42,291 nt of DNA, taken from positions 1 to 42,291 of IMG/VR virus record IMGVR_UViG_3300036398_001345; one strand, written 5' to 3'. Position numbers and translations under genes: made by a program. Below are positions 16,413-37,377 of the stretch, in pieces. Position 1 is the first letter of the stretch. The number at the start of each line of letters is the position of its first letter. The DNA is from a virus. Under the pieces are notes generated by a model. The model was not told where the DNA came from, searched no databases, and worked only from the letters and a program-made list of their open reading frames with translations.

Positions 16413-16431
16413 AAAAACCTTTGGGATTATA

Positions 16432-16900: not shown

Positions 16901-16906
16901 GTATTA

Positions 16907-17509: not shown

Positions 17510-17521
17510 TTGGCTCTCCAA

Positions 17522-17538: not shown

Positions 17539-17540
17539 TA

Positions 17541-17571
17541 CAAATATACTAAAATTATTCTAAAATACAAA
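17541..17571 (-). promoter_or_regulatory. Bacteroidota-type promoter
   Basis: On the minus strand TTTG (17571-17568), 19 bases, then TATATTTG (17548-17541), followed by TATAC. This is a textbook -33/-7 pair driving the gene at 16907-17509. Confidence 0.75.
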
Positions 17572-17576
17572 GCAAA

Positions 17577-18056
17577 TTATTCTTCATCTAAAATATCCTG
17601 CATACCACCGAATAAATAGTCAAGTTCATCATCACTTTCATCGCTTGGTATAAAGTCACTTTGTCCAACTCTTGTATCTATATCAACGAATGAATCGAGA
17701 AAAGCATCTTTATCCGGAGATATGTATGTTTTTCTCTTCATAATGGGTTCAACCATTGCAACAAATGCATTCTTTTCAGCATCAGTTGTTGGTTGTTTTA
17801 CTTTATTTTTCAATCTCATAGTATCTTTTGGCGAATATGATGTTACTCTGTGACCGAATACATCCTCTTTCACCATATCAATAAGATAGTTTGCATCATT
17901 TATTTCTTTATACATCCTTTTACCTCGTTTCTTTTTTCTTCCAGCACAATGTGCCTTCTGACTAAATCCCTTTGGTCTTTTACAATTTATAGACTTCTTG
18001 TATTTATCAGACCACTTTTCTAATAGAATCGATATTTCATCATCAAATGTATTCAT
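17577..18056 (-). CDS. Hypothetical protein with Cys/His basic motif
   Basis: This 159-residue protein has an acidic N-terminus (FDDEISILLEKWSDKYKKS). It is followed by a compact motif INCKRPKGFSQKAHCAG and a basic run RKKKRGKR (about residues 23-47), then an acidic remainder. I recall the C-x-x-PKGFSQxAHCxG phrase from several phage proteins but not with a known function. It might bind nucleic acid or zinc. No ribosome site is present; the ATATTTATT element ends three bases before the ATG. Function unknown. Confidence 0.55.
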   Translation of the reverse strand: MNTFDDEISILLEKWSDKYKKSINCKRPKGFSQKAHCAGRKKKRGKRMYKEINDANYLIDMVKEDVFGHRVTSYSPKDTMRLKNKVKQPTTDAEKNAFVAMVEPIMKRKTYISPDKDAFLDSFVDIDTRVGQSDFIPSDESDDELDYLFGGMQDILDEE

Positions 18057-18059
18057 AGT

Positions 18060-18068
18060 AATAAATAT
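18060..18068 (-). promoter_or_regulatory. ATATTTATT motif adjoining a start codon
   Basis: Minus-strand ATATTTATT ends three bases before ATG 18056 and touches the stop of the Nudix gene. The same three-base spacing is seen at 8328-8336. Confidence 0.35.
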
Positions 18069-18499
18069 CAGAGTCTTTTAATTGCATCTAAAATTTGTGG
18101 TGCCATTGGTTCTGGAAGATTATCTTTCGTGAACCAATTAACATCTTCATGTTCCCAATCTATCTTAACAAAAAATCTTTTTTTAACTGTATACAGAAAT
18201 AAAAAATACATCCTATCATCTGCAAAGTATCTATCTATACAGGTCAATTTTGCATCACTTGGTATTTGGTGCGTAGTTTCTTCAAAGAACTCTCTACGAG
18301 CACACTCTTCCATTGATTCAAGACTGTTTACATTCACTTCGCCAGATGGAACTGACCAATGACCACCGAGATAATGTGCCTTAGATGTTCTCTTTGTTAA
18401 AAGAAATTCACCACCGGTGGTCACTACAAGAACACCAGATGCTCCTGGTTTTTTTATTTTAGAAAGTTCTTCTGGTGTTATATCATTTATATTAGCCAT
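18068..18499 (-). CDS. Nudix hydrolase
   Basis: This 143-residue pyrophosphohydrolase cleaves nucleoside diphosphates linked to another group. The Nudix box is readable: Gly53-Glu54, then Glu61, a seven-residue gap, Arg69-Glu70-Phe-Phe-Glu73-Glu74. There are two extra residues between the first Gly and Glu61 relative to the usual G-x5-E. The N-terminal strand SGVLVVTTGGEFLLTKR and GGHWSVPSGE fit the fold. The substrate cannot be told from sequence; candidates are oxidised dNTPs, nucleotide sugars (relevant to the adjacent sugar island) or NAD/RNA caps. It overlaps its upstream neighbour by eight bases. Confidence 0.88.
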   Translation of the reverse strand: MANINDITPEELSKIKKPGASGVLVVTTGGEFLLTKRTSKAHYLGGHWSVPSGEVNVNSLESMEECARREFFEETTHQIPSDAKLTCIDRYFADDRMYFLFLYTVKKRFFVKIDWEHEDVNWFTKDNLPEPMAPQILDAIKRL

Positions 18500-18686
18500 G
18501 TTTACTCAAAGATTGATTATATTTTCCGTTTTTTAATCTACTGTATATCATAATCAACTCGACTTCTGACATATCATCAAGGTGTTTTTTACCGACCACA
18601 CTCTGACACCATGACATAAATTTCTTATCACCATCCCAAGATATTCCCATTTTATCTGCAATACTATGTATATCTTTTGGTGTCAT
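18492..18686 (-). CDS. Small conserved phage-type protein
   Basis: This is a 64-residue helical protein. The pattern MTPKDIHSIADKMGISWDGD … FMSWCQSVVGKKHLDDMSEVEL recalls small phage proteins with a GKxHLDDM phrase, some related to Mu Gp16-like regulators; this is from memory and uncertain. It overlaps both neighbours by four to eight bases in a tight operon. Confidence 0.55.
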   Translation of the reverse strand: MTPKDIHSIADKMGISWDGDKKFMSWCQSVVGKKHLDDMSEVELIMIYSRLKNGKYNQSLSKHG

Positions 18687-18871
18687 CTTTGGTATGGAAA
18701 AATATCATTTAATTTTTGTCTTCTTTTGTTACAACCGCAATCTTCTTTACCGACTGCCTTAGCAACTGACTCTGCAACTCTGTCCAAACCAACTGCATTA
18801 GTAATCTTTGCAATAGTATCACCAAGACCCTTTGATTCTTGATTTTCTGTCTGTTGTGTTTGTTCACTCAT
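18683..18871 (-). CDS. Small Cys-Gly-Cys protein of phage type
   Basis: This is a 62-residue protein. A polar N-terminus is followed by an amphipathic helix (LGDTIAKITNAVGLDRV) and the terminal motif EDCGCNKRRQKLNDIFPY. I recall similar CGC-x-KR-x-x-x-LN-x-x-FPY endings in small phage proteins of unknown function. ATG 18871 is preferred to the in-frame 18880 because AGGTGG lies upstream. The paired Cys could bind metal. No function assigned. Confidence 0.6.
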   Translation of the reverse strand: MSEQTQQTENQESKGLGDTIAKITNAVGLDRVAESVAKAVGKEDCGCNKRRQKLNDIFPYQR

Positions 18872-18893
18872 AATAACCACCTTTTTATTAGTT

Positions 18894-19250
18894 TTACTTT
18901 AATGTAATTAAATATTTTAGTTTATTAAATTCAGCCAACATTTCGTCACGAATATTGAGTAAGTCTGTATCTGATTGTTGATTCAATACATTACTCAATC
19001 CAATAAGATATGATACAGTTTCGTCTATAAAAGATATAATATCCTTTTCATTTCTGTTGTATACTTTGAATTGTATAGCAGGAACTCTACCGTATTTCCC
19101 CATAAGAACTTCAACAAATGAATCGATTAAATCACCCATAGCATCATATGTCCCACCGTATGCTTGATGGCGTGCATATGATTTTGTTTGCCAATGGAAG
19201 AATCTTAGTTGTGTTTGAATAGCCACAAGTGTGCTTGCTATTTCATGCAT
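18894..19250 (-). CDS. Dps/ferritin-like small helical protein (DUF5856-like)
   Basis: This 118-residue four-helix protein begins MHEIASTLVAIQTQLRFFHWQTKSYARH. The phrase HWQT…YARHQAYGGTYDAMGDLID resembles the N-terminal helices of Dps-type ferritins and the phage DUF5856 family. It lacks the length and full set of metal ligands of a real Dps (about 160 residues), so iron storage is not assured. GGAGATTATC precedes ATG 19250, and the ATATTTATA element is 33 bases upstream. It may bind DNA or metal in the infected cell or virion; that is inference. Confidence 0.6.
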   Translation of the reverse strand: MHEIASTLVAIQTQLRFFHWQTKSYARHQAYGGTYDAMGDLIDSFVEVLMGKYGRVPAIQFKVYNRNEKDIISFIDETVSYLIGLSNVLNQQSDTDLLNIRDEMLAEFNKLKYLITLK

Positions 19251-19283
19251 GATAATCTCCAAAATTAAATAATGTATTCCCAA

Positions 19284-19292
19284 TATAAATAT
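19284..19292 (-). promoter_or_regulatory. ATATTTATA motif
   Basis: Minus-strand ATATTTATA, 33 bases before ATG 19250 and just after the end of the sugar island's last gene. It is a candidate late promoter element. Confidence 0.42.
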
Positions 19293-19302
19293 AGTCTTAA
19301 TC

Positions 19303-20091
19303 TCAAATAATATACTTTGAAATCATTTTAGAGTTATTAAGTGTATTGTGTTTGGCTCTTTCACCCCACTTGTATTCAAAATATTGATGACAGTTGTGTT
19401 CTTCCATTCGAGACTTATGTATTTGTTCATCTGATTTAGCAGAGACGGAAACGAAATGATAGAAGTGCGTAGAATAATCTCTTGACATTTTCATACCACT
19501 TAACTCACATTTCAAAAAGAAATCCCAATCTGCAACATACCCAGCTTGTGATGGATAACTTTCATCAAACCCACCTACTTTCAAAAAGTCTTTCTTGAAC
19601 ATAAGAATTGGAAAAGTACATCCAGAATCATCCATAGTATTTTTTGAGGACACCATTTCGGAATAATCCCAAAACTTTTCCACATCAAAACTATCGGGAG
19701 TTCTTCCCAAATCCTTTATGATAAATTGTCTGAACATACTTGGATATGGTTCTATTTGATTGGGTGATACAACTTCGTTCTCTAACATATTCATAGTCAA
19801 TAGTTCATCCCAATTTTTAGGGAAAACATTGTCATCGTTCACTATTAGAATCTTGTTATGTGTAGAATTATACACACCTAAATTAGTGGCACGGCAAGTA
19901 CCAACATTCTGTTCTAAATTAAGAACAAGTATGTTGTCACTATGTTTTTCCAGAATATCCTTATTAACATCGTATGTTCCATCAACAACTACAACTATTT
20001 CATTATCATTCTTTTGTCCTTTTATTGCAGATGTTAAACATAGGTCTAACGAAGATGGTGATTTGTAAGTTGGTATTATTACCGAAATCAT
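19303..20091 (-). CDS. Family 2 glycosyltransferase
   Basis: This is a 262-residue GT-A, inverting-type glycosyltransferase that moves a sugar from a nucleotide-sugar donor. The N-terminus MISVIIPTYKSPSSL with EIVVVVDGTYD (Asp37) and the metal-binding NDDNVFP (Asp86-Asp87) are standard GT2 elements. GGFDESYPSQAGYVADWDFFLK is the acceptor-side motif. It is the last gene of the 11-kb island and overlaps the upstream gene by four bases. Acceptor and sugar unknown. Confidence 0.85.
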   Translation of the reverse strand: MISVIIPTYKSPSSLDLCLTSAIKGQKNDNEIVVVVDGTYDVNKDILEKHSDNILVLNLEQNVGTCRATNLGVYNSTHNKILIVNDDNVFPKNWDELLTMNMLENEVVSPNQIEPYPSMFRQFIIKDLGRTPDSFDVEKFWDYSEMVSSKNTMDDSGCTFPILMFKKDFLKVGGFDESYPSQAGYVADWDFFLKCELSGMKMSRDYSTHFYHFVSVSAKSDEQIHKSRMEEHNCHQYFEYKWGERAKHNTLNNSKMISKYII

Positions 20092-20774
20092 AGACTACCC
20101 CAATCAACCAATGGGGAAACAAATGGATTTTCACAATGGGTGGAGTATCCTGGAATACAAGATATTAAATTAGATCCCTCTTTCCATAAATGAGTAAACT
20201 TTGTATGATCATAACCATCGTGAGTAACATCTGGTCTACAATATAACTTATGAATATCCCAATGAGTTTTAAATGTACTCATTTTTCCTGCATAGGTATT
20301 ACAAGTAGATGGGGTTGATCTCCAATGTGATAGTTTACTAACGAGAATCTTAGACTGCAATGGATCATACATTGGTAAAAAGTATTTATCAGGATGGTCA
20401 TATAAAGTAACATAATCAACATTAAACGATTGGAAAGCATCCATCATTACTAAATCCCATCCAGGTCTATGCATATAATCATCTTCAACTAAATAAACTA
20501 TTGTGTCTGCATCTAAATCTTTTGTGACTACTGTTTCTAATAAGAAGTCAAAACTTGCATGGTCTGATCCTCCTGAAAACTCTATTACTTCATTTCCACG
20601 AAAATCTACATGATGGTTTTCCATTTTACCATCAAGACAAACGGTTATGTCTACATTATCGGTCATCAAAGAATCAAAACATTTTTGAAACGAAAACCAT
20701 TCTGGTTTAACATCATTTTTTCTATCTGCAGATTTATTATTATGTCTAACAAATATGTGAATTGGTTTATTCAT
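20088..20774 (-). CDS. GT-A type glycosyltransferase
   Basis: This 228-residue protein has the fold signature of a GT-A transferase with an acidic metal site VYLVEDDYMHRPGW (Glu97-Asp98-Asp99), here EDD instead of DxD. The downstream HDGYDHTKF and CIPGYSTHCE phrases recall capsule/LPS-type glycosyltransferases of large phages and giant viruses. AAAGGTGG precedes the ATG. It overlaps its neighbours by four and eight bases. Donor and acceptor cannot be named. Confidence 0.65.
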   Translation of the reverse strand: MNKPIHIFVRHNNKSADRKNDVKPEWFSFQKCFDSLMTDNVDITVCLDGKMENHHVDFRGNEVIEFSGGSDHASFDFLLETVVTKDLDADTIVYLVEDDYMHRPGWDLVMMDAFQSFNVDYVTLYDHPDKYFLPMYDPLQSKILVSKLSHWRSTPSTCNTYAGKMSTFKTHWDIHKLYCRPDVTHDGYDHTKFTHLWKEGSNLISCIPGYSTHCENPFVSPLVDWGSL

Positions 20775-21453
20775 GGCACACCCACCTTTCAGAAATAATT
20801 GGTCTAATTGGATTCAAATTATTATCTATGCCGTATCGAGGATATAGATGTAATTTTGTTTCCTTACAATTTAAAAATTCTACCATATAAAATGTAGCCG
20901 TACTTACTGTGTGAAATTCTTTTGAATTTTCTATAACCTTACCCCAATCTAACAGAGTAAAACCATCGATGTAATCCATCTGTATTACTTTATTATTACT
21001 TTCTGGTGTAATTGATATTTTATATTTCAAATCAGGTGATGCAAAATTACAATTAACTAATGTATATTCTTCACCTTCTTTCAATCCTAATTTTTCATAC
21101 AGTTCATTTTCTTTATCATAATTTCTATTCCACTTTAAAGTTTTCCATTCGGAAATATCTTCTGATACATAATGGTACTTTGCACCCATACAATCGAGTT
21201 TAATACCCATAGAACGAAGTATATTTTCCGCATTTAGAAAATCTATCTTTTCAACCAATGAATATATTGGTTCATTTCTATATTTAGACATTTCTATAAA
21301 TGTTGTATTTGGTAGAACCAAATAATCTTTTATCCAAATATATTCATCGTTTACTGGCCAAATGACATCGTAATCTAATTTGGATATGATAGGTGATATG
21401 AAAAGAATATCACCTATCCCAAACGGTTGCATTATTATTATATTTTCTTTCAT
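20767..21453 (-). CDS. GT-B (family 9-like) glycosyltransferase
   Basis: This 228-residue protein starts MKENIIIMQPFGIGDILFISPII, which matches the N-terminal GxGD loop of ADP-heptose:LPS heptosyltransferase-like enzymes. VNCNFASPDLKYKI and the C-terminal HTVSTATFYMVEFLNC fit the donor-binding half. It is short for the family (usually 300 or more), so one lobe is reduced. It probably transfers a sugar within the island's glycan pathway. Function beyond the fold is inference. Confidence 0.55.
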   Translation of the reverse strand: MKENIIIMQPFGIGDILFISPIISKLDYDVIWPVNDEYIWIKDYLVLPNTTFIEMSKYRNEPIYSLVEKIDFLNAENILRSMGIKLDCMGAKYHYVSEDISEWKTLKWNRNYDKENELYEKLGLKEGEEYTLVNCNFASPDLKYKISITPESNNKVIQMDYIDGFTLLDWGKVIENSKEFHTVSTATFYMVEFLNCKETKLHLYPRYGIDNNLNPIRPIISERWVCHE

Positions 21454-21457
21454 TGTA

Positions 21458-22210
21458 TTACATCAACTGAATTTTTTTAAAATATGATAATGTTTCTGAG
21501 TTAAACATATTGGGTTGTAGTTTGTTTTTAATGCTACCACCGGCTTGATGTAAAACTTTAACCACTTTATTGTTTAGTATAAGTTCATCATTTACTACTT
21601 GAATTTCTTTCCAAGAATCCCAATGTGTCTTTTCTCCCCAAACATTTGATATACCATAATAAACATTACTATCTACTGGATCAAGCATCTTGTGTGTCCA
21701 ATCTTCTTCATGCACCATTCTATTCAATATAGATTGTTCTTGGAATGGCATTATGTTTCCAAATGATAAATTGTATTCTATCCATTTCTCTAAAAAAGAT
21801 TTATTAGTTACACCAACCAAACCACAGTTAAGATATGTGTCCCAACTATATTTTTCAAAAATAGCAGAATCCTTTCCTGCCTTTTTGAAATCGTTGTTAT
21901 TTCGGACACCGATTATATCGTAGTTCAAATTATCTTCATCCAACAGTTCATCTAATTTTCCAGTTATTATACAGTCTGCATCAAAATGAACTACCATATC
22001 GTATTCATCTATCAACTGCATTGATATTGCAGGATGTACTGTTGTCCAATTAAAATTTTCATGTGAATCGAAAATAGTCTGTATCTGTTCCGAATTAAAT
22101 ACATAAAATGGTATATCCGGATGAAAGTGTTTTGCGGACTTCAATAATTTATCAGCACCTATTGTAAAAAACCAATCGTCAGAAACATGAGTACAAAATG
22201 CTACATTCAT
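21458..22210 (-). CDS. Family 8-like glycosyltransferase
   Basis: This is a 250-residue GT-A enzyme with the DxD metal motif in VVHFDADCIITG (Asp77, Asp79) and the typical conserved phrases YLNCGLVGVTNKSFLEKW and FQEQSILNRM. A C-terminal HQAGGSIKNKLQP loop fits the His-containing C-terminal metal/donor site (HxxG-x-x-K) of retaining GT8 enzymes. AGAGGA precedes ATG 22210. It overlaps the transketolase Pyr-domain gene by four bases. The sugar is unknown. Confidence 0.75.
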   Translation of the reverse strand: MNVAFCTHVSDDWFFTIGADKLLKSAKHFHPDIPFYVFNSEQIQTIFDSHENFNWTTVHPAISMQLIDEYDMVVHFDADCIITGKLDELLDEDNLNYDIIGVRNNNDFKKAGKDSAIFEKYSWDTYLNCGLVGVTNKSFLEKWIEYNLSFGNIMPFQEQSILNRMVHEEDWTHKMLDPVDSNVYYGISNVWGEKTHWDSWKEIQVVNDELILNNKVVKVLHQAGGSIKNKLQPNMFNSETLSYFKKIQLM

Positions 22211-22689
22211 AATATCCTCTTTGATAAGTTAAGATAAACTGGACCCTGTTCTGAAAAAGTTGAATGTAAATCTTCGATTAACTCATTTTCATCTTCTGGT
22301 CTTTTATATTGTATGTTTTCAAAATATTTTAATATATCATCATCGTGTCCCCAATGTGTAAACCCATCGTGTGAATAGTCTTTATCTCTTCCAGATGCAA
22401 CTAATTTTATATTTAATTTTTCACGATTAACATAATTGCGTATTAACTCCATTGGTCTGAAAACTATAAATGGTGTTATACTATATGCAATAGGAATCTT
22501 TCCAGTATAAGATAACCCAACACACATACCAATCATCAGTTGTTCCGATGAACCACAATTTATGAAATTGTTTGGATATTTTTCCTTGAAAGAATCGAAT
22601 AAACCATACCCTAAATCAGCAGTTACCAGAATTATGTTTGGATTTTTTTCTACTTGATTTTCTAAATATTCTACAAATCTTTTCCTCAT
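22207..22689 (-). CDS. Transketolase-like Pyr-domain subunit
   Basis: This 160-residue protein corresponds to the pyrimidine-binding (Pyr) domain of a thiamine-diphosphate transketolase. The cofactor-activating Glu is in INCGSSEQLMIGMCVGLSY (about residues 46-64). ITPFIVFRPMELIRN and DGFTHWGHDDDILKYF match the rest. The third, C-terminal transketolase domain is absent; the protein stops just after GPVYLNLSKR. It should pair with the PP-domain subunit at 23237-23893 to form one active site. ATG 22689 replaces an upstream TTG. The methyltransferase gene 22711-23244 lies between the halves. Confidence 0.8.
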   Translation of the reverse strand: MRKRFVEYLENQVEKNPNIILVTADLGYGLFDSFKEKYPNNFINCGSSEQLMIGMCVGLSYTGKIPIAYSITPFIVFRPMELIRNYVNREKLNIKLVASGRDKDYSHDGFTHWGHDDDILKYFENIQYKRPEDENELIEDLHSTFSEQGPVYLNLSKRIL

Positions 22690-22710
22690 AATTAAAACCA
22701 AGATAGTTGA

Positions 22711-23244
22711 TTAAAAATTTCCAATTACAATTCTATACCAATCAACAAATTTTATAGTATATTTTTCATTAGAGCTGAAAGGGAAATATTTACTATAAGC
22801 CGTAAATACTTCTGGCTTATTCGTGTCATCCATGAATATCATTCCACGAGTGCCTTTCAATAAATCTAAACTGAAATCAATATCTATGATAACATCTTCA
22901 TGTATATGAGAACCGTCAATCATTATGGTTTGTACATCATTCAATTTTATATTAGACTTAATAAAGTCTGCAGTTGTCATTTCGTAATGAGTTATATTTG
23001 GCAAGTTCATATTTGATAAAGCAACTTCTCTTATATGAGGCATTGATTCGCCTCTATTTTTATGTGAAATCCAAGAAGTAAAACCATCTTCTATAAATGG
23101 ATCAATTACATAAAAATGTTTTTGTGGAAACTCTAATGCCAAAGAACGGACTCCCTCACCATCAAATGCACCTATTTCCAAATGATTCCCACCAAAAGTA
23201 TTCAGTTCATATTTCAATACTTCATAGTTAATTGGACTAAGCAT
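22711..23244 (-). CDS. SAM-dependent methyltransferase
   Basis: This is a 177-residue class I (Rossmann) methyltransferase of the small FkbM/Methyltransf_24-like kind. Motif I is HLEIGAFDGEGVRSL; the acidic position after strand 2 is VIDPF; later IMIDGSHIHEDVIIDIDFSL and GMIFMDDTN. It probably methylates a sugar or glycan intermediate. It is unusually placed between two transketolase subunit genes, overlapping the PP-domain gene by eight bases. AAAGGAG precedes ATG 23244. Confidence 0.78.
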   Translation of the reverse strand: MLSPINYEVLKYELNTFGGNHLEIGAFDGEGVRSLALEFPQKHFYVIDPFIEDGFTSWISHKNRGESMPHIREVALSNMNLPNITHYEMTTADFIKSNIKLNDVQTIMIDGSHIHEDVIIDIDFSLDLLKGTRGMIFMDDTNKPEVFTAYSKYFPFSSNEKYTIKFVDWYRIVIGNF

Positions 23245-23893
23245 TCACTATCTCCTTTATTTTATTTTTTAATTCTGTTAATATATCGTTATTTGCACTC
23301 GTATAGTGTGCAGCCAATTCGTGTTTCCAACTCAAAAGTTCACTAACATCTGTCTTATGGATAACAACATTTTCCAAAAACGATTTTAGTCTTTTTTCCA
23401 ATTTATCACAATCAACCGATTGATATGCAGACCAACCATTTATATTACAATGTATTGTTATATTTTCTACATTAGAATCACTTATGAATCTAAGAGATTC
23501 CCATATCGAACCTTCTGCACATTCACCATCTGATATTACACAATGAACTGTTATATTTTTATTACCAACTGCAATACCAGTTGCAACGGTTATACCTAAC
23601 CCAAGACTGCCAGTAGCAACATCAATATAGTTATCAATATCTCTATCTGGATGAATACCATGTTTAACTAACAACTGTTCAGCATCAACTCCATAAAAAT
23701 GTTCCAATACAACATACAATGCCAATCCAGCATGACCATTTGATAGTACAACTTTATCATCCACTCCCTTCTTAGAATAAATGTCAAACAATATTGGTAG
23801 TGTAGTTAAACAGCTACCGAGATGTCCGAGATTATGTTTTACGCTTATATCAACAAGTCTATACATTAACTGATAAACGATTGGTTCTCTCAT
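23237..23893 (-). CDS. Transketolase-like PP-domain subunit
   Basis: This 218-residue protein matches the N-terminal, diphosphate-binding domain of transketolase: LGHLGSCLTTLPILFDIY, VVLSNGHAGLALYVVLE, TGSLGLGITVATGIAVG. The ThDP metal motif reads SDGECAEGSIWESLRF followed by the Asn in HCNING. It would transfer two-carbon ketol units, plausibly onto a nucleotide sugar to build a branched or keto sugar. AAGGAG precedes ATG 23893. The matching Pyr-domain subunit is at 22207-22689. Confidence 0.85.
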   Translation of the reverse strand: MREPIVYQLMYRLVDISVKHNLGHLGSCLTTLPILFDIYSKKGVDDKVVLSNGHAGLALYVVLEHFYGVDAEQLLVKHGIHPDRDIDNYIDVATGSLGLGITVATGIAVGNKNITVHCVISDGECAEGSIWESLRFISDSNVENITIHCNINGWSAYQSVDCDKLEKRLKSFLENVVIHKTDVSELLSWKHELAAHYTSANNDILTELKNKIKEIVNA

Positions 23894-23905
23894 TGAAAAA
23901 ACTCC

Positions 23906-24463
23906 TTAATGTTTAAAGATTACCAATAAACCTCTATGGCATCTTTCGTTTGGTAATGTTGATTTGTTGAATAATACATGATGTAAATTACTATTCTTAC
24001 ATTCTTCAAGAATTTCAAGAAGATTTGGAAAACTACCATCTATTTCTGGAAACAAATTAACATCATGGTAAATCAATATTCCATTTGGTAACAATAGATT
24101 ATCATAAACATATCTGAACCATTCGTTTGTGTGATGATGGTCTGCATCTGACAGTATGAAATCATATTTATCTTTGGTTGAAAATACAAAATCCTTTTCA
24201 TCCGATGTAACAATGTTAATCTTTTCACCATACCTTTCTTTAACTTCTATTGGCATAGCCCTTCCGAAATCAATCCAATTATCTACTAATGTATAACTTG
24301 GATTATTGCCATTGTAAGCAATCGCCTCGAGTATATTATCTGTTGCTCTACCACCACCTACACCAAGTTCTAATATTTTTTCTGACTTATGTGATGCAAC
24401 TAATCCTGCAACTAAATGTGCATGACAGACATCAATCTTTACATTTTCATTATTACCAAACAT
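23906..24463 (-). CDS. SAM-dependent methyltransferase
   Basis: This 185-residue class I methyltransferase has motif I ILELGVGGGRATDNILEAI, TLVDNWIDFGRA after strand 2, ILSDADHHHTNEWFRYVYD with the acidic/His cluster typical of metal-dependent O-methyltransferases of the Methyltransf_24 group, and LIYHDVN. ATG 24463 is preferred to 24475 because GGAG is seven bases upstream. It lies between the epimerase and the transketolase, so an O-methylated sugar is a reasonable guess. Confidence 0.78.
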   Translation of the reverse strand: MFGNNENVKIDVCHAHLVAGLVASHKSEKILELGVGGGRATDNILEAIAYNGNNPSYTLVDNWIDFGRAMPIEVKERYGEKINIVTSDEKDFVFSTKDKYDFILSDADHHHTNEWFRYVYDNLLLPNGILIYHDVNLFPEIDGSFPNLLEILEECKNSNLHHVLFNKSTLPNERCHRGLLVIFKH

Positions 24464-24464
24464 A

Positions 24465-25310
24465 CTAATCTCCAATTTTTAATTTATGTAATTCGTTTAG
24501 TCCATCTTCAAGACTATACTTTGGAAAATATTTATACTTATCTTTCAACTTTGATATATCAGCAACCCAAGATTTAATCGTATCGAATGTTCTCATTTTA
24601 TCTTCTATTAAATTAACATCAATACTATAACCGAATATATCACTTAATATATCGTAAACCTCTTTGTTTGTCCATTGACTGCCAAAACCTATATTAACAA
24701 CATCACCCTTAATCATTTCGGAATCAGAATTTGATATTACTAAAAGAGCATCTACAAAGTCATCTATGTAAATAAAATCATGTACACCGGGTGATATTGT
24801 TATGGATTCTTTTTTTACAAATTTATCAAATAATGTTGGTATAAATCTGTGTGATTTTTCATAAAGACCATATACTGAAAAGGGTCTTACCGTAACTATC
24901 GGTTTGTTATATCTGGATGCAAATCCTTTACATAACATTGTTCCAGATGATTTTGTTGCAGAGTATATTGTATTTGGTTCTAAATAATCATCCTCTGACA
25001 TGGGTTTGTTTTTTGTTCCATACTCAGATGATGAACCACAATAAACAAATGCCTTGTAATTTACATCTTTCGTTTGTTCAAGTAAGTTGTAAGTAAACAT
25101 GACATTCGACTCGAACATAGAATCTTCATCATAGATTTCAGCAGCAAAATGGAATATGTAATCCGGATTAAATGATTTAATTTTTTTTACCAAACTGTAA
25201 TCTCTTTTTATTTCCATTACATCACAGTTGATAAACCTTTCAAGTAAATGTTTACCGAGAAATCCAGTTGATCCGGTTATTACAATTTTTTTATTTTCAA
25301 TATTATGCAT
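24465..25310 (-). CDS. NAD-dependent sugar epimerase/dehydratase
   Basis: This is a 281-residue extended short-chain dehydrogenase acting on nucleotide sugars. The NAD-binding ITGSTGFLGKHL (Gly13, Gly16, Gly19), the HFAAE strand, catalytic Ser in CGSSSEYG, Tyr116-xxx-Lys120 in YSATKSSG, and RPFSVYGLYEKSHRFIP are all present. The exact reaction (4-epimerase, 4,6-dehydratase, reductase) cannot be fixed by eye. ATG 25310 overlaps the end of the upstream methyltransferase gene by eight bases; the longer frame is rejected. Confidence 0.88.
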   Translation of the reverse strand: MHNIENKKIVITGSTGFLGKHLLERFINCDVMEIKRDYSLVKKIKSFNPDYIFHFAAEIYDEDSMFESNVMFTYNLLEQTKDVNYKAFVYCGSSSEYGTKNKPMSEDDYLEPNTIYSATKSSGTMLCKGFASRYNKPIVTVRPFSVYGLYEKSHRFIPTLFDKFVKKESITISPGVHDFIYIDDFVDALLVISNSDSEMIKGDVVNIGFGSQWTNKEVYDILSDIFGYSIDVNLIEDKMRTFDTIKSWVADISKLKDKYKYFPKYSLEDGLNELHKLKIGD

Positions 25311-25794
25311 TTTCGCCAAACACCATGAAAGCATTATTCAAATCAATACCAGATGTGAATATGTTTTTATACCCTTTATCTTCCATATAGTCATGTATTA
25401 TCTGTGGTGTAAATATATTCAAGTGTTTTAAGTTATTCCAAGGTCTCCAATAGACTTGTGAATAATCTGGAAGATACAAAAACAATACACCGCCTGATTT
25501 CAATTTAGTTGTCCAGTAATCCAAAACATCAACCCAGTTATTAAGGTGTTCAAGGCAGTGTGAAGAAAATACATAGTCCAAATTATTATATGGAATGTTC
25601 ATAGCATCCCATTCATTTATCACAGGATCAATTGGATGTGCTCCCGGAAAAGCCCATTCTTCTCTATTACATCCAATATCAACACCCACTCCTTTACAAA
25701 CTTGTTGTGCATAAGGTATTGCAAATCTTGAAGCATAACCTTCACTTTGAAACTTTGGATAGGTTTTTCCTTTATATGTTATTGTTTCAATCAT
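25303..25794 (-). CDS. SAM-dependent methyltransferase (Methyltransf_11-like)
   Basis: This is a 163-residue class I methyltransferase. Motif I is GVGVDIGCNREEWAFPGAHPID; motif II/III is DYVFSSHCLEHLNNWVDVLD; and LKSGGVLFLYLPD follows. The C-terminal NLKHLNIFTPQIIHDYMEDKGY is the usual acceptor-side part of capsular and sugar methyltransferases. It sits between a GT2 gene and the epimerase with four- to eight-base overlaps. GAGG precedes the ATG. Substrate unknown. Confidence 0.82.
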   Translation of the reverse strand: MIETITYKGKTYPKFQSEGYASRFAIPYAQQVCKGVGVDIGCNREEWAFPGAHPIDPVINEWDAMNIPYNNLDYVFSSHCLEHLNNWVDVLDYWTTKLKSGGVLFLYLPDYSQVYWRPWNNLKHLNIFTPQIIHDYMEDKGYKNIFTSGIDLNNAFMVFGENA

Positions 25795-26413
25795 GGATTT
25801 CCTCGTAAAATTTGTTTTGATTTTCTTGACGGTCTATTGTTTTTGAATGGAATAAACAAAATTCCTTTTCCTCTGGAAAAGCAGAATATGTTTCGTATCC
25901 TGATAGTCTTTCGTGTACTTTATTTTTCCAAACAATTTCTTCTTTGTTTTTGTATATTCGTGTTTGATAATCTGGCCAATTTATTCTACCAATTTCATCA
26001 ACTCTCCAACCCCATTTTTTAATATGTTCTTCTGTTATACCATCCACTAAGTTCCATCTTGGAACCAAAAACATATCAACATCATTATCAATGAGTAGTT
26101 CGTGTAAATTATCTATCATGTCTCCAGACGGAAGTTCATCTGCATCTATATTGAATATCCATTTTTGTGTACAATGACTTTTCAAATTGTTTTTGAATTG
26201 TGCAAAATCTTTATCTAATGGAAATTCTATAACCTTAAAGTTTTTTATAGTATCTCTGTATGAATCTATAACACTTCTAACAGCAGATGTAACGGCCATC
26301 GTGTCCATTTGAACAACTATTTCATCATCATCTTTTAATTTATCTTTAAGAAATCGCAACAAAACATTCAAATCCATGTCTTCATTACAGGTGGTAATAG
26401 TATATGAAATCAT
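25787..26413 (-). CDS. Family 2-like glycosyltransferase
   Basis: This is a 208-residue GT-A protein. It starts MISYTITTCNEDMDL and has the DxD site FNIDADELP (Asp90, Asp92). Its end (VWKNKVHERLSGYETYSAFPEEKEFCLFHSKTI, split here as WKNKVHERLSG and LFHSKTI) matches the family of WaaE/KdtX-like glycosyltransferases. It overlaps neighbours by four and eight bases, indicating a single transcript. The sugar donor is unknown. Confidence 0.8.
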   Translation of the reverse strand: MISYTITTCNEDMDLNVLLRFLKDKLKDDDEIVVQMDTMAVTSAVRSVIDSYRDTIKNFKVIEFPLDKDFAQFKNNLKSHCTQKWIFNIDADELPSGDMIDNLHELLIDNDVDMFLVPRWNLVDGITEEHIKKWGWRVDEIGRINWPDYQTRIYKNKEEIVWKNKVHERLSGYETYSAFPEEKEFCLFHSKTIDRQENQNKFYEEIHD

Positions 26414-27720
26414 TTTGTATCTTCTCCAGAAACCGGTGTTATTTTTTTAAGTTTAGGTAAATTGATAGAAACTTGTTGTGCAAATTTAGGCAATCTATCA
26501 TTTAGTATCTTAATAAATTTGTTATGCATTTTTTCATATGACCAAAGATTTTCAACCTCTCTAACGGATAACTTAGAGTTTCTTAAAAATTTAGTATAGT
26601 TGTTAAAAACATCATACAATACTTTTGATGCGTCTTGATAGTTTACAGTAAACCATTGTGTTCCTGCGTTTATTACACTCTGCCAAACTGCACTTGGATG
26701 GACGGGTTTTAATTCACCTTTCAAATGAGTGTGGAAATTCTGATTAACAAAGTCTACATGACCACTCCATCCTGAAACAATGATTGGTTTACCACTTGCC
26801 ATAAATTCAGCAATAGGTCTACCGTAACCCTCACCTTTTGTAAATGAAACAAATGCCTTAACTTTCTTGTGATTGTATAGAGAGTTCATTTCTTCATCAG
26901 TCAATTCACCGTGAATAAGATATATGTTTGGCATATCAGTTTTTTTAGTCATTTGTTTTATCAAATTTATCTTTTCAATAACTCTACTTTTATCAGTTGT
27001 TGAAAATGTTCCACATGATGTCTTTAATAAAAGAGCAGGTTTTTTAGGTTGACCAGAAAATGTTTCTATGAATGTATAAATCAAACCAGATATGTCTTTT
27101 CTATCTTGTCCAAAGTCACCTTTAAGCCAATGTCCTACAAAAAGAAATGCAAAATCTTCTTCCATTTGATTAAGAGTTTCTTCTATACCAGAGTTCATTT
27201 CGATTGACTTATTGTAAATATCCAATCGAACACCTTCGTGTAAAACTTCAACAGGTGTTGTAAGTTTCAAAATATCAATAGCAGTATTTGTAACTTTATC
27301 GTGTTTAGTATATGATGTTTCATCAAAAACTTTTTTAGCGTGTTTCGATGGAACTATAACTAAATTCATTTTATTACAACCATCAATCCATTCTGGAGAA
27401 CAAGCATCTGTTTCAACTCCAGCAGTAATACCAACATTATACTTACCAACAGGTTGAAATTCATTTGGTATAGTACATTGCATCCAAATATCAGGTTGTC
27501 TGTTTAATGGTTCTGTCCTCACCAAATCCAATATAAGTTTATCATCTTGTTTGTTTGGATTCAATGCATTCATTGGAGTATCGCCCCAATTTATTGAAAT
27601 GACACTTATATTAAACTTATCCATTTTTATCAAGGAAAGTAACAAATCTCTTGCGTGGGATCCATAACCACTCATTGTAGCAACCGGTCCACAAAATACT
27701 AATTCTGGTCTATAATTCAT
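26410..27720 (-). CDS. GT-B (family 4-like) glycosyltransferase
   Basis: This is a 436-residue GT-B glycosyltransferase. The N-terminal glycine loop is FCGPVATMSGYGSHARDLLL, the hinge AGVETDACSPEWIDGCNKM is followed by VIVPSKHAKKVF, and the donor-site EX7E-type motif reads EGYGRPIAEFMASGKPIIV, followed by GHVDF. The length is normal for the family. It is one of three consecutive large GT-B genes (26410-30562). AAGGA precedes ATG 27720. Acceptor unknown. Confidence 0.87.
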   Translation of the reverse strand: MNYRPELVFCGPVATMSGYGSHARDLLLSLIKMDKFNISVISINWGDTPMNALNPNKQDDKLILDLVRTEPLNRQPDIWMQCTIPNEFQPVGKYNVGITAGVETDACSPEWIDGCNKMNLVIVPSKHAKKVFDETSYTKHDKVTNTAIDILKLTTPVEVLHEGVRLDIYNKSIEMNSGIEETLNQMEEDFAFLFVGHWLKGDFGQDRKDISGLIYTFIETFSGQPKKPALLLKTSCGTFSTTDKSRVIEKINLIKQMTKKTDMPNIYLIHGELTDEEMNSLYNHKKVKAFVSFTKGEGYGRPIAEFMASGKPIIVSGWSGHVDFVNQNFHTHLKGELKPVHPSAVWQSVINAGTQWFTVNYQDASKVLYDVFNNYTKFLRNSKLSVREVENLWSYEKMHNKFIKILNDRLPKFAQQVSINLPKLKKITPVSGEDTK

Positions 27721-27730
27721 ATTGTAATCC

Positions 27731-29167
27731 TTAAACTTTGTATAATCCGTAACGACTTCTTGGGTTGAAGTTGTTCAAACAATTATTTATACTTTCTACT
27801 ATTCTTTTACCCATATTCTTACTTTCCATTCCAACCTTTTCATCCATCATATATTTACGACCTTTCAATCCTGCAATCTTTCTGTCTTCCTTTGATGTCT
27901 GATACCACTCATAAAGTGCCTGACCAATATCTCTGAAATCAGCTCTGTCATCGAAAATGTATGGAGTTGGAACAGAACCTTGAACTGATATATTTGATGG
28001 CCACACGGGCTTAACCCATTCACCATGTTGTAAATGTCCCCATTCATCCTTTCTATGCAAAGTATGTACTTTAATGTAATCATCTTCTGTAAAATACTCA
28101 TTTGTTTCTGGATTGATAAAACCACATTGGTCTTGCAATCCACCTGTAACATTCACCACAACAGGTGTTCCAGATATAATAGATTCCGCAGTAGCAAGTC
28201 CAAACCCCTCATTTGAAGCCATGTTGATAACAACATCTGCATTATTGTAAAGGATATTCAACTTTCTTGATTCTATAATTCTATCATCAAATAAAACTTG
28301 ATATTCATTACACAATTCACCAACAAGTGAAACCAAATCTGTTCCATTTGGATCAATAGGTTGGGTATGCATAAATAAAACACAATCTTCTGCCGCATTA
28401 CCACCGTTCTTGTCTACGAGTTGGCAAAAATGTTTGTATGCAAGAACAACATCTCCTGGATGTTTACGATGAATATTTCTATTGTTCCACATAACAACAA
28501 ACTTATTAGGATTTTCACCACGAATTTTTTTACTTTCTTCTTGTAGTTCATTCCAATCATTATGTTGTTCTGTTTCATTTGCATTTATTGGATAGAAAAT
28601 ATTTGAATTGATTCCATGTGGTACATAAGTAATTCTACCATTAGATGTACTTTCACCTATTCTATTGAATATTCTATTATTTATACCATAAGTTTGTTTT
28701 GAAATCGCCATTAACAAATCACAACTAGCATACGCATCTTTATTCCACATAGGATCAGTTGCAGTATTTCCAATCAATCCTGCACCATCCCATATATTCA
28801 AATAAAGTAATGGAATATATTGACGAATTTCATGTTCCATATTATACAACCATCCCCAAAATCTTGGATCAGTAAAGTGTAATATTGCATCTGGCTTTTC
28901 CATATCAATTAGTCTTCTCAAAGTCAATGGATCACCATATCCATCGTGTGCATATATCTTAGATGACGCATCTGGAACACCTGTTATTTGTGCAGCATCA
29001 TCTGATAAATCGAAAATCTTTCCTTTATCTGGATGATTTATAGCGGCACCTAATTGAACCCAATCAAATTCTTTTATAGTATTCAAAACTATATCTCTCG
29101 ATACAGTTGCAATACCAGATGTAAGTCTCAAATCATCTGACAGTAATAATATCTTTTTCTTTGCCAT
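27731..29167 (-). CDS. GT-B (family 4-like) glycosyltransferase
   Basis: This is a 478-residue GT-B transferase. Its start MAKKKILLLSDDLRLTSGIATVSRDIV has the typical GIA/V donor-side loop. The middle contains LLMAISKQTYGI and VVMWNNRNIHRKHPGDVVLAY, and the EX7E motif is in NEGFGLATAESIISGTPVV, followed by NVTGGLQDQ. AAAGG precedes ATG 29167. It is in an operon with the neighbouring GT genes. Sugar and acceptor are unknown. Confidence 0.88.
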   Translation of the reverse strand: MAKKKILLLSDDLRLTSGIATVSRDIVLNTIKEFDWVQLGAAINHPDKGKIFDLSDDAAQITGVPDASSKIYAHDGYGDPLTLRRLIDMEKPDAILHFTDPRFWGWLYNMEHEIRQYIPLLYLNIWDGAGLIGNTATDPMWNKDAYASCDLLMAISKQTYGINNRIFNRIGESTSNGRITYVPHGINSNIFYPINANETEQHNDWNELQEESKKIRGENPNKFVVMWNNRNIHRKHPGDVVLAYKHFCQLVDKNGGNAAEDCVLFMHTQPIDPNGTDLVSLVGELCNEYQVLFDDRIIESRKLNILYNNADVVINMASNEGFGLATAESIISGTPVVVNVTGGLQDQCGFINPETNEYFTEDDYIKVHTLHRKDEWGHLQHGEWVKPVWPSNISVQGSVPTPYIFDDRADFRDIGQALYEWYQTSKEDRKIAGLKGRKYMMDEKVGMESKNMGKRIVESINNCLNNFNPRSRYGLYKV

Positions 29168-29176
29168 GTGAAACCT

Positions 29177-30562
29177 TTATATGTTAAAAAACTTTTGTGT
29201 TGTAGTTGATGAAACACCGTTCATGTTAATAAGCATTTTACGGTATGGTTTGAATTTGTAACCCATTTGTTCTAACGAAGAATTAAACCAATCTTCCGAG
29301 TAACTATCTTTATTTCTTTTACCGTTTGAAACTATTGTTTGTATATCACGAACAAAGTTATCAAGTCTATTCATATCTCTTGTTAATCGTATCAATCTTA
29401 ATCTTCGTCTGTTATATTCTTCTTCATCTTTTTCTAATCTTTGAATCTCTAATATAAGACTTTTTAATGAATTTTCCAAATCATTTATATCATAAGATAA
29501 AACTAATTCAGCAAATTCCGTTCCCTTGAACAAATCAATGTATGTTTTATCGTAGATTGGAATAGTCATCAAGTTCTTTTCTATCTGTGCATATTCAAAT
29601 CTTGGTGTGATAAACATTCCAAAGAAAGGCACTTTTGTATTTGTTGTTGATATACTAAATCTACAACCAGTTAAAAAGTCCATCATACTTTCCATCGTGT
29701 ATGTTCCAGCAAGTATCATGGGTTTGTGGTTATCGAAAACTTTGAATACAGTTGGATCCAAATCATAGTCTGGTAGGAATGTATCACTAAAAGTTTTACG
29801 AGAAACATTCGCGTGTTCTGCCAATATCTTTACATGATTAAAATAATTTTCAGGTGAGTATGTGTTTCCAATGTGAACCAATTTCTTACCAGACAGGTCT
29901 TTCAATCCCATCTTACCCATTGTTTCTACTATTGGTTTGAAGTTTCCATGTCCTTTGAATTTGGCGTAGTAAGCACATTCTGAAATGTATGGTAATTCTT
30001 TTTTATTTTCCCATGATTTCTCAATCCACTTGTCATAAATACTCATGTCAATATAACCACCGACTTGAAAAGTATAGTTGGAAGTTCCTCTCATTCCAAT
30101 ATATTCTTTCAAGGCATCTACAAAGAATGGTGTGTATGTTAAGTAGTAATCACTATATTTTATGAATGCCGGAACACAAATGGTATTGAAGTGCATGCCT
30201 TCATACGGATATATCTCGTGGTCAAAGAATGCAGTTATAGTATTCAACTTACAATACATCTTTGCCAATTCAATCAGTCTTTCTCTATGTTCTGGTTTTC
30301 TTTTTTGAATACCATCAACATCGTAGATAAATTTGTTTAGATTCAAAACAACAATATCATAACCCTCTAACTTATTTTTCAATTCAGTTATTTCCATTTC
30401 GGAAATATCTATACAGTTCTGATATTCAGATTTGAAATTGTTTGTTTCACTTGGATTGAAATAAAATGTATCAACACTATCAAGTGATGATATATTTTTA
30501 GTGAATGTATGTATTCCCCTATAAACTGATAGGTCAATGATTGCTAATTGAGCTATTTTCAC
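29177..30562 (-). CDS. GT-B-like protein, faintly like T4 alpha-glucosyltransferase
   Basis: This is a 461-residue protein. The pattern HTFTKNI near the N-terminus, YYAKFKGHGNFKPIVETMGK in the middle and RFEYAQIEKNLMTIPIYDK near residue 330 parallels the order of conserved phrases in T4 DNA alpha-glucosyltransferase (VTKFS; W-K-G-F; E-Y-T-H-L-E-L-G … IPVF). This is visual similarity only. If right, it would glucosylate modified phage DNA or another acceptor. GTG is the start, overlapping the ribbon-helix-helix gene (GTGA), with AGGTG upstream. It is the first sugar gene of the island. Confidence 0.5.
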   Translation of the reverse strand: MKIAQLAIIDLSVYRGIHTFTKNISSLDSVDTFYFNPSETNNFKSEYQNCIDISEMEITELKNKLEGYDIVVLNLNKFIYDVDGIQKRKPEHRERLIELAKMYCKLNTITAFFDHEIYPYEGMHFNTICVPAFIKYSDYYLTYTPFFVDALKEYIGMRGTSNYTFQVGGYIDMSIYDKWIEKSWENKKELPYISECAYYAKFKGHGNFKPIVETMGKMGLKDLSGKKLVHIGNTYSPENYFNHVKILAEHANVSRKTFSDTFLPDYDLDPTVFKVFDNHKPMILAGTYTMESMMDFLTGCRFSISTTNTKVPFFGMFITPRFEYAQIEKNLMTIPIYDKTYIDLFKGTEFAELVLSYDINDLENSLKSLILEIQRLEKDEEEYNRRRLRLIRLTRDMNRLDNFVRDIQTIVSNGKRNKDSYSEDWFNSSLEQMGYKFKPYRKMLINMNGVSSTTTQKFFNI

Positions 30563-30789: not shown

Positions 30790-31701
30790 TTAGAACGGTA
30801 AAGTATTTCTTTTTTCTTTCGGACAGAGTTCTTCTTTATTATTAAACTCACAGTATTTACAATTTGAATAATCACGACCAGCTTCTGGTGTTTGTATAAC
30901 ATCTAAACGATATTCACCTTCTTCTGTAAAGTTTGTTGTGATAAACTCTGCAATTTCTTTTTTAATATTGTTCTGCGAAACTTTGCCGTTGGATGGTTCA
31001 AATCTTTGAACTCTCTGTTTCATTGCTTCATATTCAGCATCTTCCATTATTTTACGGCGAAGAATTAAATACTCGATATGTATTTCTTCGGGACTAACAC
31101 CGTATTGTTTTGCATAATATGTTTTGTAAAGTATCAACTGTGATGTTTTTACTTTATCTGTCTTTGCATATTTGTTCCAACCATTTGTGCTAGTTTTGAA
31201 ATCATATATGTATATCTCACCGGTCTTTGTATTTCTGATTACCAAATCAAGAAACCCAACTAATCGTACCGTTGGATGACTTTCAAGTGGAACTATGTTT
31301 AGCGGAACTTCTATACCAACCAATTCATAATCTTTCTTTTGAAAGAAATCTGCACGATGTGCTTTAAACCATTGAAGAATTTGAACACCATCGGAATAGT
31401 ATTCTTTCAACTCTTTATCATTTGAGAAATGAATACCCTTTGATTCTTCGAGTAATTTTTTATATTCACCACGAATACCAGTGTGTAACATTTCATCGAG
31501 GTCAAGTTTATTTGCCTCAACTATTGATTTCTCATAAATGTTTTTCACATACTCTTGTAACACTTCATGCATTACTGTTCCGAAAAGGGCAGCAGTTGAT
31601 GGTTGAAATGTATAGTGTTTATCTATGTAATTGAGTTTCCATCTATTAGGACAGACTTTCCACATTTGATATTGTGAGAAAGATACTTTACGATTAGGCA
31701 T
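30790..31701 (-). CDS. PD-(D/E)xK exonuclease, RecB/Cas4-like
   Basis: This 303-residue nuclease has a PD-(D/E)xK core: SFSQYQMWKVCPNRWKLNYI at the start, GTVMHEVLQEY with the motif His (about residue 45), Asp in VGFLDLVIRN (about 151), IYDFKTS giving DxK, and a QLILYKTYY motif (QxxxY). Four Cys (Cys17, and the C-terminal NCKYCEF … LCP set) fit the Fe-S cluster of AddB/Cas4-type nucleases. It likely degrades or processes DNA ends in replication or recombination. It overlaps the LYHYT gene by eight bases. Confidence 0.85.
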   Translation of the reverse strand: MPNRKVSFSQYQMWKVCPNRWKLNYIDKHYTFQPSTAALFGTVMHEVLQEYVKNIYEKSIVEANKLDLDEMLHTGIRGEYKKLLEESKGIHFSNDKELKEYYSDGVQILQWFKAHRADFFQKKDYELVGIEVPLNIVPLESHPTVRLVGFLDLVIRNTKTGEIYIYDFKTSTNGWNKYAKTDKVKTSQLILYKTYYAKQYGVSPEEIHIEYLILRRKIMEDAEYEAMKQRVQRFEPSNGKVSQNNIKKEIAEFITTNFTEEGEYRLDVIQTPEAGRDYSNCKYCEFNNKEELCPKEKRNTLPF

Positions 31702-32182
31702 TCATTTTTTTCACGGTTAATGGTACAAATAAATTTACGATTGGTAAACCACCGGTAACATAATAGACACCGATGAATTTTTGTTTTGCCATACGCAATA
31801 GTGAATCTATATTTAAAACATTATAGTTCATAGAATGTTTTATCATATTAAACACATCTTTATTTTTTGCTTCAAGAGAGTTTGGATTATTTACATATTC
31901 ATTTACACTATCTGTTAAATTCAGTATATTGGATCCATTGACTTCACCAACATAAAGATTTTTAGTTTTAACCATCCTTTCAGTTTTGTTCAAGTCTGTA
32001 TAATAAAATACTCTTGGAACATCTGAAATTTTGTAGTCATTATTTGTCCAAAAAGATTTATTTTTTATAGCAATTTGAGGATCAAGTATTACTGAATCAC
32101 CCATTTCATTTTGTGTATAATGATATAACTTAACTGATCCAGAAAGTGTAATCTCCTCTTTAATCAAATCTTTAAGCTTCAC
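31694..32182 (-). CDS. LYHYT-motif protein with propeptide-like N-terminus
   Basis: This is a 162-residue protein. GTG 32182 is chosen because GGGAG lies seven to eight bases upstream and the resulting N-terminus MKLKDLIKEE matches the shared propeptide-like sequence. A longer ATG start would lie deeper in metK. The start is inside the 3' end of metK (11-base overlap). The mature part begins SVKLYHYTQNEMGDS, resembling the HYT strand of ADP-ribosyltransferase-like toxins, with WTNNDY, VPRVFYYTDL and GVYYVTGGLPIVNLFVPL later. No full ART catalytic triad is clear, so enzyme status is uncertain. It could be an injected effector. Confidence 0.6.
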   Translation of the reverse strand: MKLKDLIKEEITLSGSVKLYHYTQNEMGDSVILDPQIAIKNKSFWTNNDYKISDVPRVFYYTDLNKTERMVKTKNLYVGEVNGSNILNLTDSVNEYVNNPNSLEAKNKDVFNMIKHSMNYNVLNIDSLLRMAKQKFIGVYYVTGGLPIVNLFVPLTVKKMNA

Positions 32183-37376: not shown

Positions 37377-37377
37377 A

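Follow-up and report, generated by a model that had tools for sequence, protein, structure and literature searches.

Gene content of the locus

The viral DNA described here, IMG/VR virus record IMGVR_UViG_3300036398_001345, is a phage fragment of 42,291 bases, the whole of which we refer to as the window. It carries an island of 14 minus-strand genes, running from 30562 down to 19303, that encode glycosyltransferases (GTs), S-adenosylmethionine (SAM) methyltransferases, a nucleotide-sugar epimerase/dehydratase and a split transketolase; genes are designated below by their lower coordinate. Eight of the 13 junctions overlap, by 4–32 bases, and the other five have gaps of 4–12 bases, as expected from the tightly coupled run at 19303–30562 described in an initial annotation, which gave the number of genes as 13 instead of 14 (8 + 3 + 1 + 2). 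The most informative feature of the island is not visible from one sequence: only positions 19303–25800 are variable among relatives, whereas 25787–30562 is conserved.

Family scans of the window identify clamp loader subunits (phrog_168, 4.5e-86), a clamp (phrog_223), PolB (phrog_262, 8.4e-184), GroES/GroEL and SAM synthetase. The contig is, to judge from these T4-like replication genes, a fragment of a T4-like phage, and clamp loader, clamp and PolB support the placing of a glycan-assembly island within a phage replication neighbourhood.

The island gave no megablast match to phage records. The closest isolates are Microcystis phage Mel-JY01 (PP395634) and Flavobacterium phage immuto (MW353176). 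Of the core genes described below, GT2 occurs in five and GT4a in seven of 50,697 phage records. Relatives were compared as a set of 85 loci, made up of 80 IMG/VR loci fetched with GT4a (at least 80 exist), locus L002 and four phage records, to which the window is extra. Open reading frames of the relatives were called with a custom script, and proteins were clustered by single linkage at 30% identity. Fourteen loci, including the window and Mel-JY01, are complete in the sense that they extend from the nuclease through a Dps-like gene, the latter being the boundary by which they were chosen; one of them, G003, has its cassette read across contig ends without overlap and presumes circular permutation.

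The host given for Mel-JY01 (PP395634.1), Microcystis, is odd beside relatives that infect Flavobacterium and Rhodothermus, and the record may need checking. A scarcity of Shine-Dalgarno sequences (13 of 141 genes in G003) was dropped as a host clue, since the T4 control gave just 3 of 11.

Conserved core and fixed flanks

Three GT genes form the core of the locus. GT4a (27731–29167; PF20706, 3.6e-7; PF00534, 1.2e-6) is present in all 85 loci, a figure that has to be read with its use as bait for 80 of them; its nearest PDB chain is the chlorovirus glycosyltransferase B736L (3oy2, 6.9e-9), over 59 residues only. GT4b (26410–27720; Glycos_transf_1 PF00534, 1.8e-6; phrog_2170, 2.9e-22) is present in 77 loci and the core GT2 (25787–26413; PF00535, 4e-9) in 56. 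PADLOC gave no defence system to these core GTs. The fixed upstream neighbour is a PD-(D/E)XK nuclease (30790–31701, minus strand; PF12705, 8.2e-24), found in 83 loci, and the order nuclease-GT4a-GT4b-GT2 recurs through the set, while the genes that come after it vary by locus. When the window is included, giving 86 loci, the corresponding protein clusters contain 84, 88, 78 and 62 members. At the downstream end a Dps-like gene (18894–19283, minus strand; phrog_858, 2.3e-19) forms a fixed boundary in all 14 complete loci. Of the genes between, 22207 is found in one of the 85 loci and 23237 in three, and 21458, 22711 and 23906 in none.

The core GT genes have a different history from the genes around them. 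In comparison with relative G023, synonymous divergence (dS) is 0.22 for the clamp loader and 0.19 for 29177, but 1.14, 1.21 and 0.91 for GT4a, GT4b and GT2, values that are roughly five-fold higher and, where above 1, close to saturation. The trio thus behaves like old, exchanged alleles, whereas 29177 travels with the backbone and not with the cassette. The ratio of non-synonymous to synonymous polymorphism (pN/pS) lies between 0.05 and 0.42 for every core and cassette gene compared, indicating purifying selection.

The gene that precedes GT4a in the window, 29177–30562, encodes a 461-residue protein without an assigned family that occurs in 23 of the 85 loci with a median identity of 95%. 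Its assignment as a GT is not supported; it has no family or PDB match, and hhalign gives probabilities of 0.1–0.5% against four GT sets, among them GT4, GT9 and E. coli. The AlphaFold model, with a predicted local distance difference test score (pLDDT) of 39, was taken no further. The protein has no known relative outside the group, is 92–98% identical across 22 relatives (alignment A2) and is missing from most of the 85 loci. In Mel-JY01 and some other loci (L041, L034–L044, L003) its place between nuclease and GT4a is taken by an inosine monophosphate (IMP) dehydrogenase/guanosine monophosphate (GMP) reductase-like gene, from a cluster of 11, which perhaps serves the supply of guanosine diphosphate (GDP) sugars.

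Genes of the window cassette

The variable cassette (19303–25800, minus strand), delimited by the points at which DNA alignment to relatives breaks off, opens with a Methyltransf_23 SAM methyltransferase (25303–25794; 4.9e-10). This is followed by an NAD-dependent nucleotide-sugar epimerase/dehydratase (24465–25334; PF01370, 2.1e-36), whose nearest solved structure is 6zl6 (8.4e-26) and whose exact type is not assigned because no NCBIfam equivalog cut-off was reached. Two Methyltransf_24 SAM methyltransferase-like genes (23906–24475, 37.7 bits; 22711–23244, 30.2 bits; cut-off 26.3) come next, interleaved with the two genes of a split transketolase, one for a thiamine diphosphate (ThDP)-binding chain (23237–23893; Transketolase_N PF00456, 2.7e-8; PDB 3mos, 7.4e-14) and one for a pyrimidine-binding chain (22207–22701; Transket_pyr PF02779, 4.3e-16). 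Pfam matches above cut-off at all six genes bear out the three methyltransferases, the single epimerase/dehydratase and the two-subunit transketolase of the initial annotation.

The remaining four genes had all been described as GTs. Gene 19303–20091 is a clear GT2 (PF00535, 1.3e-17), and nine of the 14 complete loci carry a member of its family; it also has a weak match to phrog_841 (85 residues, 6.2e-4) and no predicted membrane segment. Gene 20088–20774 matches no Pfam family, yet Foldseek and VIA-align recognise a GT-A fold in its AlphaFold model (pLDDT 74), with the best superpositions on a Leptospira glycosyltransferase (Z 13.3) and on SpsA (Z 13.1), and EDDY, HWR and DH residues are invariant across 18 sequences of the family. 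Gene 21458–22210 is assigned to GT8 with the support of weaker but consistent matches (Pfam 1.3e-4, under cut-off; NCBIfam PRK15171, 2.3e-7; hhalign probability of 43% against E. coli WaaJ). Gene 20767–21453 has no Pfam, NCBIfam or PDB match; it matches one weak PHROG of unknown function, and hhalign gives a probability of 1.4% to GT9; the protein is 88% identical in L089, with a pN/pS of 0.13. Six of the eight proposed GTs (two GT4, two GT2, one GT8 and one of GT-A fold) therefore stand, while 20767 and 29177 do not, and the earlier observation as a whole is partly confirmed.

Exchange of the cassette

The cassette has sharp edges. In blastn comparisons of the window with eight relatives, homology resumes at 25,797–25,806 in all eight, and the block on the left stops at 19,292–19,309 in seven. 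In the eighth, G011, the alignment runs on to 20,091, this being the relative that shares the last cassette gene of the window. The same gene aligns as a separate block in G010, and a weak island of homology is seen at about 19,800–20,170 in G002, G007 and G013. With L007, a ninth comparison in which the start of the cassette is common to both, the alignment extends to 24,466.

Between these edges the content is highly diverse. The span from GT2 to Dps in the 14 complete loci holds 2–17 genes in 1.6–13.0 kilobases (kb), so that the description of the island as large for a phage needs qualification, the sugar cluster of cyanophage P-SSM2 also having 15 genes. These cassettes comprise 62 families, 26 of them confined to a single locus. 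A wider set of 78 loci, mostly incomplete, has 491 genes in the stretch beyond GT4b; outside the core trio its full-length genes of at least 100 residues fall into 153 clusters, of which 77 come from a single locus.

Variation of the cassette on a constant backbone is most evident in pairs of viruses. Among 13 loci, Mel-JY01 being left aside, 39 pairs have near-identical backbones, defined by identities of at least 94% in the clamp loader and at least 84% in the nuclease; 28 of these pairs have at most one cassette family in common and 19 have none. G007 and G009 are 99% identical in the nuclease and 99% in 29177, yet share none of 23 cassette families, and G003 and G008, with identical nucleases (100%), share none of 20. 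Conversely, the same cassette type is found on different backbones: type c11 occurs both in G003 and G004, which are without 29177, and in G002, G007 and G013, which have it, and type c85 occurs in G009, in L010 and in L044, in which the IMP-dehydrogenase-like gene replaces 29177. The methyltransferase-epimerase-transketolase start of the window cassette recurs in L007 and L041, and the short contig L089 reproduces 22711 to 20088 at 88–94% protein identity with an extra gene ahead of the last. The gene preceding Dps is 19303-like in five complete loci and belongs to family c42 in four; a relative of c42, annotated as a glycosyltransferase, ends the immuto cassette. We conclude with considerable confidence that this is a glycan locus whose cassette is exchanged between viruses. 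Its parts list is ordinary; its population structure is unusual.

A second site of cassette-type genes, including an epimerase and a GT-like gene, lies beside GroEL in G011 (16243–19300; L126).

Cassette chemistry and the split transketolase

A Pfam scan took in 150 of the 153 cluster representatives, which omit loci L005 and L006 and genes shorter than 100 residues. The commonest families, judged from the first 25 of 125, include the glycosyltransferases GT2 and GT29 (sialyltransferase), epimerases, methyltransferases, DegT aminotransferases, hexapeptide transferases and cytidylyltransferase, together with GDP-mannose dehydratase and UDP-glucose dehydrogenase. NeuB is found in 8 of 30 records, and the L002 cassette, from several families identified by eye, looks like a nonulosonic-acid pathway.

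Both transketolase chains of the window match the split-chain enzyme of Carboxydothermus (6yaj, 1.1e-18, for the pyrimidine-binding chain; 6yak, 9.6e-10, for the ThDP-binding chain), and a ThDP motif and the region of the catalytic glutamate can be recognised by eye. The two chains are also encoded on separate genes in L002. A C-terminal third domain is absent, as the 22207 chain has 164 residues and covers residues 41–193 of the 341 in 6yaj, and the L002 chain has 158. Split enzymes that add two-carbon units occur in other pathways, and a natural guess from the domain content is that the window enzyme transfers two carbons onto a sugar. A bacterial origin was considered and rejected, the genome scan having given just two distant matches (33% and 27%); the Clostridium match adjoins a gene recognised by eye as a probable transaldolase, which points to central metabolism. 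A limited literature search found no paper linking a split transketolase with a gene cluster, no description of the GT4a/GT4b/GT2 trio and no paper on Mel-JY01.

Proposed mechanism and nature of the acceptor

These features suggest a phage-borne, serotype-like glycan locus that makes a cytoplasmic oligosaccharide with a fixed core and an exchangeable outer part, probably carried on a virion protein, a reading to which we give a probability of about 0.5. The soluble enzymes would work within the host cytoplasm, where GT4a, GT4b and GT2 would attach the core common to all and extend it, using one acceptor throughout the group. The cassette enzymes would modify nucleoside diphosphate (NDP) sugars, make the sugars specific to each cassette, cap the core and methylate its outer part. 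In the window the product may comprise methylated sugars and an epimerised one, the latter possibly two-carbon-extended or branched through the split transketolase. The least certain steps are that the acceptor would be a virion protein and that turnover of glycan type may be selected by whatever recognises the particle surface, be it immune factors, grazers, competing phages or the lectins or receptors of the host. Tentatively, the tailed phages of this lineage might even have true virion glycotypes, in which a particle protein would carry a glycan with a conserved core and allelic exchange of cassettes would replace the outer part in one step under such selection.

The initial annotation left DNA, virion proteins and the host surface open as targets, but the three are not equal. 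Remodelling of the host surface, in which the enzymes would alter host lipopolysaccharide (LPS) or capsule during infection and might, for example, block superinfecting phages, has the attraction that the cassette enzyme types resemble those of O-antigen loci and that similar clusters in jumbo cyanophages have been read in this way (PMC7824862). Relatives of 25303 lie inside cyanophage sugar clusters, and a relative of 20088 lies beside an annotated sulfotransferase. No polytopic membrane protein such as a flippase or polymerase, defined by at least two segments predicted with a Kyte-Doolittle window rather than a trained predictor, was found among 467 cassette genes (counted with the same omissions as the cluster representatives) or, with the 14 complete loci taken from GT4a as far as Dps, among their 191 genes, although the same scan gave nine segments for RfbX and six for WbbH of the E. 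coli K-12 rfb cluster. No complete lipid-linked surface pathway is thus encoded, and host machinery would need to be borrowed, which makes this explanation unlikely. The P-SSM2 cluster is likewise without flippase- or polymerase-like membrane proteins, so the published surface reading lacks them too. Hypermodification of DNA, with trio and cassette glycosylating a hydroxylated base against restriction, would suit a locus beside the PolB, clamp and clamp loader genes, and sugar-sensing restriction enzymes could select for diverse sugars. The same search that detects T4 gp42 found no ThyA-family gene in the complete Mel-JY01 and RM378 genomes, in the window (itself a fragment), in the 168 kb of G015 or at the syntenic place in G011, so that a hydroxymethyl base is an unlikely acceptor group-wide, barring another route. 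A search for Tet/JBP oxygenases gave no match, though no positive control matched either, and no known DNA-glycosyltransferase Pfam family was matched among the 14 island genes. Cassettes of up to 17 genes, with nonulosonic-acid genes among them, would also be extravagant for a single base. We regard this explanation as quite unlikely, even with the divergent ThyA homologue found in G003, G004 and G008, which in the first two adjoins asparagine-synthase-like and pyridoxal phosphate (PLP)-enzyme genes. The same enzymes would suit the making of a sugar-derived metabolite that is secreted or diffuses away, or the glycosylation of RNA or of a non-virion phage protein, and a second cyanophage cluster has been read as a secondary-metabolite system (PMC7824862). 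This we consider improbable; there is no assembly-line, ligase or transport gene among the 14 island genes, and the conserved GT trio would imply a conserved macromolecular acceptor.

With the complete surface pathway and glucosyl-hydroxymethyl DNA both disfavoured, a virion protein remains, and it fits the chlorovirus precedent; by this elimination and analogy we lean slightly towards it as the glycan target, and the earlier interpretation is partly supported. A number of points weigh against a virion glycan locus of this kind. Both the acceptor and virion glycosylation itself are putative, deduced from gene content. The locus adjoins replication genes, where T4 has its DNA glucosyltransferase, three records have the ThyA homologue noted above, and restriction enzymes that sense sugars would drive sugar diversification just as well were DNA the target. 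Soluble GTs could use host lipid-linked intermediates and a host flippase. A Ser/Thr-rich collagen-like candidate acceptor is found in just 2 of 30 records. Divergence of the core GTs does not always follow cassette type: G004 and G008 are 85% identical in GT4 with no family in common, whereas G003 and G004 are 79% identical with nine.

Collagen-like Gly-Ser/Thr repeats were rejected as a general acceptor, the two records being Mel-JY01 and G007. In Mel-JY01 (L087 2–3052 and 4747–8430) a 1016-residue Gly-Ser/Thr collagen-like protein is encoded close to a 1227-residue protein with a GT4b-like domain that is annotated as an FkbM methyltransferase, both genes being near structural genes; the pair is a candidate for a fibre and its own glycosylating enzyme.

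In G003 (23071–26106; L115 3071–6106) the divergent ThyA homologue and the asparagine-synthase-like and PLP-enzyme genes lie together near PolB, as they do in G004. They are absent as a set from G011; G008 has the ThyA homologue, and G003 also has ThyX. In G003 and G004 they may constitute a separate set for hypermodification of DNA bases.

Other genes in the window

A SAM synthetase gene (32172–33314, minus strand; three Pfam domains), patchy in its distribution (12 of 85 loci), is a possible source of the methyl donor. Two adjacent N6/N4 DNA methyltransferase-like genes at 36312–39000, between clamp and clamp loader, may draw on the same supply. Elsewhere, genes 4419, 4954 and 5459 (4419–6277) and 35509 (35509–36264) cluster together by similarity and make up a small family of repeated proteins. 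The motif TATAAATA was rejected as a marker of late promoters, its occurrences being dispersed over both strands without pattern.

Biological implications

Near-identical large uncultured phages appear able to build sugar coats that differ considerably, a parallel to the exchange of surface antigens among bacterial strains. If so, the particle surface would be chemically diverse independently of the protein coat, in a phage group that is widespread in metagenomes, and host range, recognition by lectins or immune factors and competition between phages may hinge on a cassette usually filed as ‘auxiliary metabolism’. The locus would also be a source of unusual soluble GTs, with one conserved acceptor and many outer sugars, and the role of phage ‘LPS genes’ would become testable on an isolated relative, immuto.

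Comparison with known systems

Bacterial Wzx/Wzy O-antigen and capsule loci have fixed flanks and a swappable middle, and the same enzyme classes appear in the phage cassettes. The present locus differs in being virus-borne and in lacking a flippase, a polymerase and an initiating transferase of the membrane. Serotype-converting gtrABC cassettes are defined by the GtrA flippase and a membrane-anchored GtrB, of which the sole trace here is the phrog_841 match of 19303. Virion glycosylation of mycobacteriophages has reportedly been treated by Freeman (2023) and viral DNA glycosyltransferases by Pyle (2024). Virion glycotypes would give prokaryotic viruses a counterpart of the serotype loci of bacteria and of the glycans on chlorovirus capsids. 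In chlorovirus PBCV-1 the capsid protein carries a glycan whose conserved core bears virus-specific decorations (PMC7826918). The likeness lies in virus-encoded cytoplasmic GTs and methyltransferases, with conserved core enzymes and variable outer ones here; the chlorovirus system differs in belonging to a eukaryotic virus and in having the major capsid protein as proven acceptor, against a putative one here. We know of no exchange of cassettes at fixed edges in chloroviruses.

Both immuto and Mel-JY01 have the nuclease-GT4a-GT4b-GT2 order of the window followed by different sugar cassettes, with DegT aminotransferases in immuto and four genes in Mel-JY01. The transketolase resembles that of Carboxydothermus (6yaj, 6yak) in consisting of two chains, each homologous to its counterpart. 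It differs in that the second chain of the window is a pyrimidine domain only (164 against 341 residues) and that a methyltransferase gene separates the two genes. Another aquatic phage lineage is reported to have four core glycosyltransferase groups (PMC12619734).

The closest relationship is with the sugar clusters of T4-like cyanophages of the P-SSM2 type, which contain soluble epimerases, methyltransferases and GTs, are polymorphic between related viruses and, at least in P-SSM2, have no membrane proteins, just as the cassettes here have no polytopic ones; they have been interpreted as surface-polysaccharide systems directed against competing phages (PMC7824862). By tblastn the methyltransferase 25303 is 63–67% identical to cluster genes of Synechococcus phages S-T4, Sf-CH5 and Sf-CH8, and Synechococcus phage S-SRM01 has a gene with 41% identity to 20088, from which we infer a shared gene pool. 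The core trio was not found in cyanophage records. No sugar kinase or sugar nucleotidyltransferase was found among the 14 genes of the window (E ≤ 0.01); these are annotated in some cyanophage clusters, where they are frequent but not strictly defining. The cyanophage sugar clusters are thus the closest known kind, and what is new in the present locus is its fixed flanks and core, the exchange of its cassette as a unit and a cassette with a split transketolase.

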